Below are positions 22,677 through 60,827 of a DNA stretch of 64,000 nt, piece after piece. This DNA comes from Spirochaetota bacterium (lineage in GTDB: Bacteria > Spirochaetota > JAAYUW01 > JAOAHJ01). The position numbers were made by a program, and so were the translations under genes. The first letter of the stretch is position 1. Every line of letters starts with the position of its first letter. The notes under the pieces were generated by a model. The model saw only the letters and a list, made by a program, of their open reading frames with translations. It was not told where the DNA came from and made no database searches. Where the stretch lies: the NCBI GenBank assembly GCA_026415295.1, contig JAOAHJ010000003.1, forward strand, positions 1 through 64,000, read 5' to 3'.

Positions 22677-24834
22677 AAAAAATGAATTTTTTTATTTTTA
22701 TTTTTCTTTTTATTCTTTTTTAATAATTTTCTTTTTTTACGAAATACTTATAAATGATACATTAATATATTTTTCTATTCCAATTTTTATTTTTGTTTAT
22801 TTATTAGAATTAATTATAAAAAGAGAAATATTAAAGTTTAGAAAAAGAAATTTTAAGTATTTTGTATATTTTATATTTTTTTTAATATTTTTTTCAATTT
22901 TATATATTTTATCTTTTATATTTTTAATAAATAAAATTAAACTTAATGATTTTAGAAATGTTCTTTTTATAAGAGCTAATTATTTTATATTTTTCTTTTG
23001 TACAATAATAATTTTACTTTTCATAATTAGATATTTTCTTTTATTTATTAAAGATTATCAAATATTTTTCTTTATAACTATACTTTTTTTATCTTCTTTA
23101 ATATTTATTATAAAAGGGGATATTTTTAAAAATATACTTTACTCATCAATTTTATTTTTATTATATTTTCTCTTTTATTTGCTTGACTGGAATTATCCTT
23201 TTAATATAGATTTTAAGAAAGAAAAAATTGAAAGCTTAAAAAAAATTTCAAAATTATTTCTTTTATTAATTCTCATTATATTCTCAACATATTTTGCTTA
23301 TCAAAAAACTTTTTCGATTAGGTTAAATAAAAGTTCATCATTATTGAAAGAGGAAAATTTTAAATTTAATTTTAAAGACAGCTTAGATATATCGACTAAT
23401 TACTCTTTTCAAAATAAACTGCTTTTTATACTTAAAACTAATAATTTTAGACTTTTAAAAGCTAAAGTTTATTCAAGATATTCTTATGAAAAAGGCTTTT
23501 ACAATGATAAAAGAGAACTACTTTTCCCTGAAAAATTAAATGAATATTATTGGGAAAATTTAGATTATATTATCGGTAAAGAATTTAGGATTGATGATGA
23601 AATTACTGTTTTTAATATTAATCTTATTAAAGATATAGTTTTTGGCAAAAATGAACCATATAAAATAATTCCGGTTATAGCCAAAGACTCTATTTTTACA
23701 AATATATTTAAATCTAAATCTTTTATCCTTTCAGATAATCTTAACTTAGAATTTTCTTTTAATAAATTAAATAAACTTGATTATGAAAGATATACTGAAA
23801 TTGTTATAAATGATAATGAAATCAAAAATTTTATAGAAAATGAAGTTAAAAATAATAATATAACAAGAAAAGAGGACATAATTAAATATTTTTATAATCT
23901 TTTTAAAAAAAATTATACATATTCTCTTAGTTCTAAAGGTGAAGGCATTGAAATAATTAAGAATTTTTTACTATATGAAAAAAAAGGTTATTGTTCACAT
24001 TTTGCTTATGCTTATGCAATGATTTTAAGATATTTTGGAATTCCTTGTAGGGTAGTTGGGGGTTTTAAGTTCAACAAAAAAAATCTCCTATTTGATGATT
24101 ATTATAAAATATTTGATTTTAATGCTCATGCATGGGTTGAAATATGGACTGATAAATATGGATGGATTGATGTAGATCCAACATCAGATATTTTGTCTCA
24201 AGATGAAATTTTACCATTCTCACAAGATTTTAGAGAAAATGAGTATAAGTATCTTGAGAATGTTATTAAAATAATAGGCAATTTAAAGGAGGTAGATAAA
24301 AAATATAAGGAAGTTGAAGAAAATAATAAAAAAGAATCAAAAAGATTTGATTTTGAGAAATATCAGAAGGAATTAAAGAAAAAAATACCCTATATATTTT
24401 TATCATTAATTTTAATTTTAATCTTTATTTTTTTTACTAAGTATTTCTTTTTATATTTGTTTTTAAATAATAAAAGATATTCAAAAATTTTAGCTAAAAT
24501 TATTTTTAAGGATTTAAGAAAAATAATTAAAAAATTTATAAGAAAGAAAGTTTGCAACAGTGAAAATTATAATATTATAACTTTTGAAGATATAAAGAAT
24601 TTTTTGAGTGACAAAAATTTATTAAATATTAAACATGTAGGAAAAAATAAATATTTAATTAAAAGTAAAGAAGAACTAATTAAATTTAATAAAAAATTTA
24701 ATATTGAAATATTAAAAGAAAATTATTATTGCTTGTTTTATTCCAGAAATAAAATATATAAATTAAAATTTAAATCTTTTTTTATTTTTATTAAGATTTT
24801 TTATTACTTTTATTTTCAATATCTTTTATTTTAG
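22648..24834 (+). CDS. Membrane protein with transglutaminase-like domain (DUF3488-TGase-DUF4129 type)
   Basis: The 728-residue protein has about six transmembrane helices in the first 225 residues, then an extracytoplasmic transglutaminase-like domain with the catalytic triad in KKGYCSHFAYAYA (C449), NAHAWVEIW (H494) and YGWIDVDPT (D508-510). A further transmembrane helix lies near residues 575-600, before a cytosolic tail. This architecture regularly completes the MoxR-DUF58 module. It may act as a cysteine protease or cross-linking enzyme on envelope substrates. It overlaps the upstream gene by 29 nt and its 3' end overlaps a convergent gene by 44 nt. Confidence 0.9.
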   Translation: MKRILKLFFRKNEFFYFYFSFYSFLIIFFFYEILINDTLIYFSIPIFIFVYLLELIIKREILKFRKRNFKYFVYFIFFLIFFSILYILSFIFLINKIKLNDFRNVLFIRANYFIFFFCTIIILLFIIRYFLLFIKDYQIFFFITILFLSSLIFIIKGDIFKNILYSSILFLLYFLFYLLDWNYPFNIDFKKEKIESLKKISKLFLLLILIIFSTYFAYQKTFSIRLNKSSSLLKEENFKFNFKDSLDISTNYSFQNKLLFILKTNNFRLLKAKVYSRYSYEKGFYNDKRELLFPEKLNEYYWENLDYIIGKEFRIDDEITVFNINLIKDIVFGKNEPYKIIPVIAKDSIFTNIFKSKSFILSDNLNLEFSFNKLNKLDYERYTEIVINDNEIKNFIENEVKNNNITRKEDIIKYFYNLFKKNYTYSLSSKGEGIEIIKNFLLYEKKGYCSHFAYAYAMILRYFGIPCRVVGGFKFNKKNLLFDDYYKIFDFNAHAWVEIWTDKYGWIDVDPTSDILSQDEILPFSQDFRENEYKYLENVIKIIGNLKEVDKKYKEVEENNKKESKRFDFEKYQKELKKKIPYIFLSLILILIFIFFTKYFFLYLFLNNKRYSKILAKIIFKDLRKIIKKFIRKKVCNSENYNIITFEDIKNFLSDKNLLNIKHVGKNKYLIKSKEELIKFNKKFNIEILKENYYCLFYSRNKIYKLKFKSFFIFIKIFYYFYFQYLLF

Positions 24835-25234
24835 ATAAAAGAAAATTTGCAAGAAAAACTACATCTTTTTCGTCAGGATATTTTTCTATAACGATATTTA
24901 AATACTTTTTTGCTTCTTCATATTTTTTAGTTGCATAATATATAAACCCTATCTCATAATAAGCATAAGCACAATAATATGTCTCTTCAGGATATTTTTC
25001 TATAATAGTTAAATAGTATTTTATAGCTATATCATAATAACCATAATCATATGCTTGTTGTCCTTTAAGAAGGAGTTTTTCTGGAGAAAGTAGTTTTCCT
25101 TCCTTATCATTTATCTCATACTTTATAAGGGAATAACATGAAAAAATGGTAGAAAGTATAATTATAAAAATGATAAATAAAAATTTTTTTGAATTAATTT
25201 TTATTCTATTATTAAGAATTAATGGAAATCTCAT
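24791..25234 (-). CDS. TPR lipoprotein (outer membrane assembly lipoprotein-like)
   Basis: The 147-residue protein has a lipoprotein signal (IIFIIILSTIFSC, with C33) and two to three TPR-like helical pairs (AYDYGYYDIAIKYYLTIIEKYPEET, AYYEIGFIYYATKKYEEAKKYLNIVIEKYPDE). The repeat style resembles YfiO/BamD and YbgF, but it is shorter than BamD (about 240 residues), so a firm BamD call is not justified. The start follows AAGGAG with an 8-nt spacer. Its last 44 nt overlap the 3' end of the convergent transglutaminase gene. Confidence 0.75.
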   Translation of the reverse strand: MRFPLILNNRIKINSKKFLFIIFIIILSTIFSCYSLIKYEINDKEGKLLSPEKLLLKGQQAYDYGYYDIAIKYYLTIIEKYPEETYYCAYAYYEIGFIYYATKKYEEAKKYLNIVIEKYPDEKDVVFLANFLLSKIKDIENKSNKKS

Positions 25235-25347: not shown

Positions 25348-25857
25348 TTAACTTTTTAATGATTCTAAAAGGTTTATAAGATTTTTAAATTCTCTAAGTT
25401 TTTCTTCGTAAATTTTGTCTCTATAATAATGATTTATATTAAAATTTTTTTTCCATATTGGTAAATCATCTATACATTTTTCTATTTCTTTAATTTGATC
25501 ATCTAAAAACTTATTTTTCTCTTCTTTTGTTAAATTATGTAAAAATAATATTTTAATTTCAAGGCCATATCTTACAATAGTATTTCTTGATAAAGGTTTT
25601 TTGAGCCATTCAATTAACTCTTTCTTACCATCATTTGTAATGTAATAAACAACTTTTGGTATTTTACCATCAATAATTTTTTCTTTTGAAAGATAGTTTC
25701 TTGAAGCAAGTCTTTCCAAAGCAGGATAAATAGATCCAGGGGAAGCAGAAAATCTTATAATATAAGAATTTTCAAATATCTTCTTTAAATCATATCCTGA
25801 AATAGGAAGAATTGATGTAAAACCTAAAATAATAAATTCTAATTCTGTAAGTTTAAT
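25348..25857 (-). CDS. PadR family transcriptional regulator, apparent ATT start codon
   Basis: The winged-helix regulator is 169 residues if begun at ATT (25857-25855). The N-terminus (K)LTELEFIILGFTSILPISGYDLKKIFENS...SPGSIYPALERL is the standard PadR DNA-binding domain, and the C-terminal half matches the PadR C-terminal dimerisation helices (AKEE-type helix LTKEEKNKFLDDQIKEIEKCIDDL). No ATG, GTG or TTG occurs in frame upstream before a stop. AAGGAGG ends 5 nt before the ATT, an ideal position. The first canonical codon (TTG 25719) would remove most of the recognition helix. It is preceded by a strong promoter at 26011-25984. The target genes are unknown. Confidence 0.85.
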   Translation of the reverse strand: MKLTELEFIILGFTSILPISGYDLKKIFENSYIIRFSASPGSIYPALERLASRNYLSKEKIIDGKIPKVVYYITNDGKKELIEWLKKPLSRNTIVRYGLEIKILFLHNLTKEEKNKFLDDQIKEIEKCIDDLPIWKKNFNINHYYRDKIYEEKLREFKNLINLLESLKS

Positions 25858-25983
25858 AAGTTCCTCCTTAATTATATTTATGATTTAATAAAGAAAATAA
25901 TTAAAAATTAAATAAAAAATTTATTAACTGAAAATTAACAATTAAATTTAAACAATTCCAAATTTAAATTTATTCTAAAAATT

Positions 25984-26011
25984 ATATTAATATTAAATTT
26001 GCTTTTGTCAA
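25984..26011 (-). promoter_or_regulatory. Promoter of the PadR gene
   Basis: On the minus strand TTGACA (26011-26006) is followed after 16 bp by TAATAT (25989-25984). The expected transcript would have a leader of about 120 nt before the proposed ATT start. The -35 lies in the small inverted repeat TTGTC-AATA-GACAA, a possible autoregulatory operator. Confidence 0.55.
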
Positions 26012-26091
26012 TAGACAAATTAATTGATTAAACTAAAAATTTGAATATATTAAGAAAAAAAATTATTAATATTTTGTTATTTTAAAATTAT

Positions 26092-59660: not shown

Positions 59661-60827
59661 CTGGAAACTATACTTATTCGATATTCTGAACTTGCCTTAA
59701 AAAAGGGGAATAGAAGTTATTTTGAATCAGTTTTAATTAATAATATAAAAAATAAATTGAAGAATATTATAGTTATTAAAGAATTTGGAAGACTTTATAT
59801 TCAGAAAGAGAGCTTTAGTGAAAATGAAATTAAAAATTTAAGTGAAATACCTGGTATTAAGTCGTTTTCTAAAATATATTTTTGTAATAAAAATATTGAT
59901 GATATTACCGATTTTTGGATCAAGAAAATAGAAGAGAATAATCTTATAAAAGATGGAACAAGTTTTTATTTTAGTACTAAAAGAATTGATAAAAGTTTTA
60001 GTTTGCATTCAGATGAAATTTCAAGATTTATTGCAAAAAGAGTTTTAGAATTTTTTAAAGATAAATATAAAAATATAGAAGCAAGATATAAAAATGTTGA
60101 TATTACATTTTATACTGAAATTAGAAAAGATTTTACATTTATTTATTGGGAAAAGATAGAAGCTGTTGGAGGTTTACCTTTAAGTACTACAGGTAAAGGG
60201 CTTGCTCTACTTTCAGGAGGAATTGATTCCCCAGTTGCTTCTTATCTTATGATGAAAAGAGGTATGAAGATTGATTTTATTCATTTTGAATCACCTCCGT
60301 ATACAACAGAAAAATCAAGAGAGAAAGTATTAAATTTAGCAAGAGAACTAAAAAAATTTGAAAATAGAGCTAAAATATTTATTGTTCCTTTTACTAAAAT
60401 TCAGGTTGCAATAAGAAAAAATTGTAATATTGAATTCTTAACTATTTTAATGAGAAGAGCTATGTTTGAGATTTCAGAAAAAATAGCAACAAAATTTAAT
60501 TATGATGTCCTCATTACGGGAGAATCACTTGGACAGGTTGCTTCACAAACTGTTAATTCTATAAAAGTCATAGAAGACATAATAAAAATTCCAGTATTTA
60601 GACCTTTGATTGGTCTTGATAAAGAAGAAATAATAGAATATTCAAAAAAAATAAATACTTTTAATATTTCTATTTTACCTTATGAGGATTGTTGCACTAT
60701 ATTTGTCCCAAAGCACCCTAAAATTAATCCTTTATTGGAAGAAGTAATGGATGAAGAGAAAAAATATAAAGATGAAAAACTTTTTGAAGAAGTATTAAAC
60801 AATATTGAGATAATTGAAATTAGATAA
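59661..60827 (+). CDS. thiI: tRNA 4-thiouridine synthase ThiI, apparent CTG start codon
   Basis: ThiI adenylates U8 of tRNA for sulfur transfer. Starting at CTG 59661 the protein is 388 residues, as usual for the rhodanese-less type, and begins (M)ETILIRYSELALKKGNRSYFE, which is the conserved ThiI N-terminus. A THUMP domain follows (about 60-165), then the PP-loop LLSGGIDSPVASYLM. No ATG, GTG or TTG lies in frame upstream, while GGAGG ends 7 nt before the CTG. The first canonical codon, TTG 59757, lacks a Shine-Dalgarno and would cut off 32 conserved residues. The C-terminal rhodanese domain of the E. coli enzyme is absent; the DCC Cys pair near the C-terminus is retained. Confidence 0.9.
   Translation: METILIRYSELALKKGNRSYFESVLINNIKNKLKNIIVIKEFGRLYIQKESFSENEIKNLSEIPGIKSFSKIYFCNKNIDDITDFWIKKIEENNLIKDGTSFYFSTKRIDKSFSLHSDEISRFIAKRVLEFFKDKYKNIEARYKNVDITFYTEIRKDFTFIYWEKIEAVGGLPLSTTGKGLALLSGGIDSPVASYLMMKRGMKIDFIHFESPPYTTEKSREKVLNLARELKKFENRAKIFIVPFTKIQVAIRKNCNIEFLTILMRRAMFEISEKIATKFNYDVLITGESLGQVASQTVNSIKVIEDIIKIPVFRPLIGLDKEEIIEYSKKINTFNISILPYEDCCTIFVPKHPKINPLLEEVMDEEKKYKDEKLFEEVLNNIEIIEIR

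Follow-up and report, generated by a model that had tools for sequence, protein, structure and literature searches.

The 64,000-nucleotide stretch of Spirochaetota DNA analysed here (the window) carries on its minus strand a gene for a PadR-type transcriptional regulator with an apparent ATT start codon, together with a conserved upstream block and a gene for a BamD-like lipoprotein (Table 1). The start region of the PadR gene reads AATTAAGGAGGAACTTATTAAACTTACAGAATTAGAA, the second codon, directly after ATT, is AAA, and the stop codon lies at 25348-25350. Upstream of the ATT the frame is open for nine codons, up to a stop at 25887-25885, and none of the nine is ATG, GTG or TTG; within 80 nt upstream, no frame of the source genome contains any of these codons. 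The first canonical codon of the frame is TTG at 25719, which corresponds to residue 47 within the winged helix, lacks a Shine-Dalgarno sequence and is the only start that a gene finder restricted to ATG, GTG and TTG gives for this gene. An earlier first-pass annotation, made from the letters of the window, had placed the start at this ATT, 5 nt behind AAGGAGG, with TTG 25719 as the first canonical codon, and it was right on each of these points and on the coordinates.

Table 1 Features at the PadR locus, in positions of the window
Feature	Positions	Strand	Basis
PadR-type transcriptional regulator, 169 aa	25351..25857	minus	Pfam PF03551, PDB profiles, fold match, orthologues in 4/4 genomes of the order
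ATT start codon, PadR gene	25855..25857	minus	sequence; ATT/ATT/ATC in three orthologues
Shine-Dalgarno sequence AAGGAGG	25863..25869	minus	5 nt (AACTT) 5' of ATT; GGAGG at 5 nt in 4/4 orthologues
TATTGACAAA block with probable -35 TTGACA	26004..26013	minus	upstream comparison of four PadR genes
BamD-like TPR lipoprotein	24791..25234	minus	Pfam TPR; TIGR03302 below cut-off; synteny

The identification of the product as a PadR protein, also proposed in the first-pass annotation, is borne out by domain, profile and fold matches. Pfam PadR (PF03551) aligns with residues 18-81 at E 1e-10, scoring 41.7 bits where the cut-off is 27, the best PDB profile matches are BC1756 (3.7e-17) and B. subtilis PadR (4.3e-17), and the fold comparison matches solved PadR structures. 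The matches to B. subtilis PadR and Rv1176c cover almost the entire length of the protein. The AlphaFold model (mean pLDDT 84) places the helices and the wing in PadR order, and its C-terminal helices at 111-130 and 141-168 are of the long type found in B. subtilis PadR. Because the Pfam match spans residues 18-81 and helix 1 of the model starts at residue 5, a start at TTG 25719 would delete helices 1 and 2 and half of helix 3. This gene gives the only PadR match in the genome, and it most likely encodes a functional PadR regulator, which is part of the explanation that we favor.

Conservation of the start region within the order

The order was sampled by four genomes from two families, the source genome (G000) and three relatives (G001, G002 and G003), and each has one full-length orthologue of the PadR gene, the three relatives sharing 57-60% protein identity with G000 PadR. 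Comparison of these orthologues, as the first-pass annotation had suggested, reveals ATT, ATT and ATC in the relatives at the residue where G000 has ATT: the start regions read AAGGAGG-AACTT-ATT-AAA in G000, GGGAGG-TGTCT-ATT-AAA in G001, GGGAGG-ATATT-ATT-AAA in G002 and TGGAGG-CGTTT-ATC-AAA in G003. Thus ATY, the 5-nt spacer after GGAGG and the AAA second codon are common to all four, the third base of the start being T or C and never G, while synonymous third bases in the codons adjoining the start differ among the orthologues. In the survey of G000 described below, 5 nt is the modal spacing for canonical starts led by a Shine-Dalgarno sequence. The Shine-Dalgarno match count is 7 in G000, which is exceptional, versus 5-6 in the other three orthologues. 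A search for the pattern AGGAGG-N4-6-ATH gave no excess over a reversed control, and therefore a Shine-Dalgarno sequence and a codon by themselves are no evidence of a start, whereas their conservation is.

In-frame canonical codons occur near the Shine-Dalgarno sequence in two of the four genomes, a GTG at codon -2 (-6) in G001 and a TTG at codon -4 (-12) in G003; both lie within or overlap the Shine-Dalgarno sequence, and a canonical start is formally possible there. G000 and G002 have the non-canonical start behind a Shine-Dalgarno sequence with no in-frame canonical alternative. G001 and G002 (loci L003 and L005) also share a five-codon mini-ORF, absent in G000 and G003, that begins with an ATG at -13, runs over the Shine-Dalgarno sequence and ends in a TAA at +2 overlapping the PadR ATTAA.

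Outside the order, a canonical codon was found near the expected start in all 33 homologous loci inspected, a count that includes a few repeats of one gene. Across 393 genomes from the phylum, the gap between the four orthologues (>300 bits) and the rest (<80 bits) contains no full-length relative, and a contig scan for further orthologues returned distant PadR genes alone.

In the upstream regions of the four genes, TATTGACAAA is the sole shared sequence of at least nine bases. In G000 its TTGACA hexamer starts at position -154 relative to the PadR start codon, in the other three genomes between -72 and -70, and the block is likely a -35 element. No operator palindrome is common to the four upstream regions, and no hairpin is common to the four start regions. 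In each of the four genomes the PadR gene is followed on its own strand by the lipoprotein gene, which in G000 has an ATG start behind AAGGAG; the distance between the two is 16 to about 360 nt, and in G002 the locus is divided between two contig ends. A transaldolase gene then follows in the three relatives. This arrangement suggests that the PadR and lipoprotein genes are co-transcribed.

Start codons elsewhere in the genomes

The first-pass annotation had also proposed a survey for genes whose N-termini precede any canonical start. Such a survey, covering 739 kb and 606 ORFs (35% of G000) and about 20% of G001, returned for G000 a handful of ORFs with a Shine-Dalgarno-led codon well ahead of any canonical start. 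This scarcity and the recurrence of ATY at the 5-nt spacing in three orthologues indicate that the PadR start exceeds what chance would give. Among 125 reciprocal-best pairs from the sampled parts of G000 and G001, the PadR gene and infC alone have a non-canonical start in both genomes; six other flagged pairs, judged by eye, reflect chance alignment into upstream sequence or thiI. Assigned by Shine-Dalgarno sequence and N-terminus, infC starts with ATA in G000, ATC in G001, ATC in G002 and ATA in G003, and we therefore conclude that these genomes employ starts of the IF3-sensitive class. The infC gene of G000 lies in L095 (contig G000:C38, minus strand, about 1610-1900), with AAGGGG 6 nt ahead of the apparent ATA. 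The initiator tRNA has a normal GGGCTCATAACCC anticodon arm with a GGG/CCC anticodon stem in each of the four genomes.

Several other unusual starts were observed. In the window, thiI (59661-60827, plus strand) has an apparent CTG start at 59661 with GGAGG 7 nt upstream; this is very probably what the first-pass annotation had counted as a second non-canonical start, and it looks real and lineage-specific, the three relatives having ATG. Elsewhere in G000, an ATA after AAGGA opens the conserved N-terminus of cbiB (adenosylcobinamide-phosphate synthase; L151:4185-5135, minus strand) 29 codons before the first canonical start, and a 133-aa orphan (L083:7119-7520, plus strand), with no relative in the other genomes of the order, has an apparent CTG start after AAGGAG. 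In G001, an ORF at L183:9225 (plus strand), for which no NCBIfam match was found, has AGGAGG followed after 5 nt by ATA, 11 codons before its first canonical start.

Odd starts do occur sporadically, with thiI, cbiB and the CTG orphan among about 600 ORFs. As an explanation of the PadR start, the relaxed start-codon choice hinted at in the first-pass annotation finds no support, because the thiI CTG is not conserved; in addition, the pair test leaves infC and PadR, and the initiator tRNA is normal.

Weighing the origin of the ATT start

Our analysis favors a model in which a weak AUU/AUC start, 5 nt behind a Shine-Dalgarno sequence, is kept by selection, decoded by the usual initiator tRNA and disfavored by IF3, with the effect of keeping the PadR protein scarce; we consider this model probable. 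Against it, one might argue that the AUY is the true start but no more than a relic that is tolerated: where a genome is very AT-rich and somewhat loose in its choice of starts, weak ones could drift in at genes that need little product, with no IF3-linked regulation. The odd starts of thiI, cbiB and the orphan in G000 and the ATA candidate at L183 in G001 could suggest as much. We regard this as unlikely. Since ATY is preserved in every orthologue while neighboring synonymous bases have changed, a merely tolerated weak start is the less likely reading, and the PadR start is most likely kept by selection; moreover, thiI starts with ATG in the relatives, the CTG orphan is without a counterpart elsewhere in the order, and infC alone among the 125 pairs behaves like PadR.

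It is considerably less probable still that the true start lies upstream, at a canonical codon in the Shine-Dalgarno sequence, through a frameshift or by way of a leader ORF ending at AUUAA, with the isoleucine codon internal. The GTG at -6 in G001, the TTG at -12 in G003 and the mini-ORF from -13 to +2 in G001 and G002 provide candidates for such a start, but none is common to all four genomes, the 80 nt upstream in G000 provide none in any frame, and starts of this kind would overlap GGAGG and be left with no Shine-Dalgarno sequence of their own; upstream and frameshifted starts were rejected on these grounds. To an assembly error concealing an ATG, or an N-terminally broken pseudogene starting at TTG 25719, we assign next to no probability, even though that TTG is all that a restricted finder offers. 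Both are excluded because three orthologues keep the ATY start at the 5-nt spacing; the four assemblies, which are separate, give the same answer, the intact ORF shows conservation from end to end, and the TTG lacks a Shine-Dalgarno sequence and would remove part of the winged helix. An ATG at 25857 or a pseudogene, which the first-pass annotation had named as fatal to its own reading, is accordingly contradicted by the orthologues.

In the favored model, translation of PadR would begin at AUU, or AUC in one relative, with a good Shine-Dalgarno sequence 5 nt upstream, and we infer from the sequence that the AUU is used in the cell. The ordinary initiator tRNA would decode this codon, and rejection of AUU/AUC by IF3 would limit PadR to a small fraction of the level expected from AUG, more being made when IF3 is scarce compared with ribosomes. 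PadR would be kept scarce relative to its ATG-started lipoprotein partner, and its level would thereby be coupled to translation-initiation capacity. Dependence on IF3, suggested by analogy, and a low protein level are the parts of an infC-like idea in the first-pass annotation that stay conjectural, while ATY in all four orthologues and the ATA/ATC starts of infC in the same genomes speak for it.

The infC gene, which encodes IF3, starts with AUU, AUC or AUA and is autoregulated in an IF3-dependent manner. Similarly to infC, PadR has a near-cognate start of the same class that is kept among relatives; unlike infC, it is a transcription regulator, and no feedback via IF3 itself is implied. The first-pass annotation was too narrow in treating ATT initiation as a feature mainly of infC, as unusual starts are documented for pcnB (AUU), sigR (GTC), ccpN (AUA) and cvfC1 (AUU). 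In S. aureus grown in poor medium, the conserved AUA of ccpN and AUU of cvfC1, each with a strong Shine-Dalgarno sequence, support about 10% of the expression obtained with AUG; in rich medium the value for ccpN rises to about 30% (PMC13009471). These Staphylococcus/Bacillus genes, a repressor and the first gene of an operon, resemble PadR in their conserved non-canonical start and strong Shine-Dalgarno sequence (PMC13009471) and differ in family and lineage, and in that levels were measured for them while PadR is known as a sequence. In Streptomyces sigR-rsrA, repression of the sigR GTC start by IF3 keeps SigR below RsrA, the product of the co-transcribed gene, which likewise places a weakly started regulator ahead of a normally started partner (PMC5472188); here the codon is GTC rather than AUY, the partners are a sigma/antisigma pair, and the IF3 effect is shown for sigR and suggested for PadR. 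E. coli pcnB shares the AUU start, described as limiting expression (Binns and Masters 2002, as cited in PMC13009471), although its product is a poly(A) polymerase and not a transcription regulator. In open-access text, we found no earlier report of a non-AUG start on a PadR gene.

Finders that allow ATG, GTG and TTG alone would cut the DNA-binding domain from this PadR protein or miss the gene, and the ortholog-pair start test could be applied to whole genomes for further cases. We speculate, quite tentatively, that PadR may be wired to IF3 availability throughout the order, so that the level of this one-component regulator, and with it that of its operon with the BamD-like envelope lipoprotein, reports initiation capacity via the conserved AUU/AUC. 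Few conserved near-cognate starts have been documented (infC, pcnB, sigR, ccpN and cvfC1), and PadR adds a regulator from an unrelated lineage, strengthening the idea that codons rejected by IF3 are repeatedly used to keep regulators scarce.
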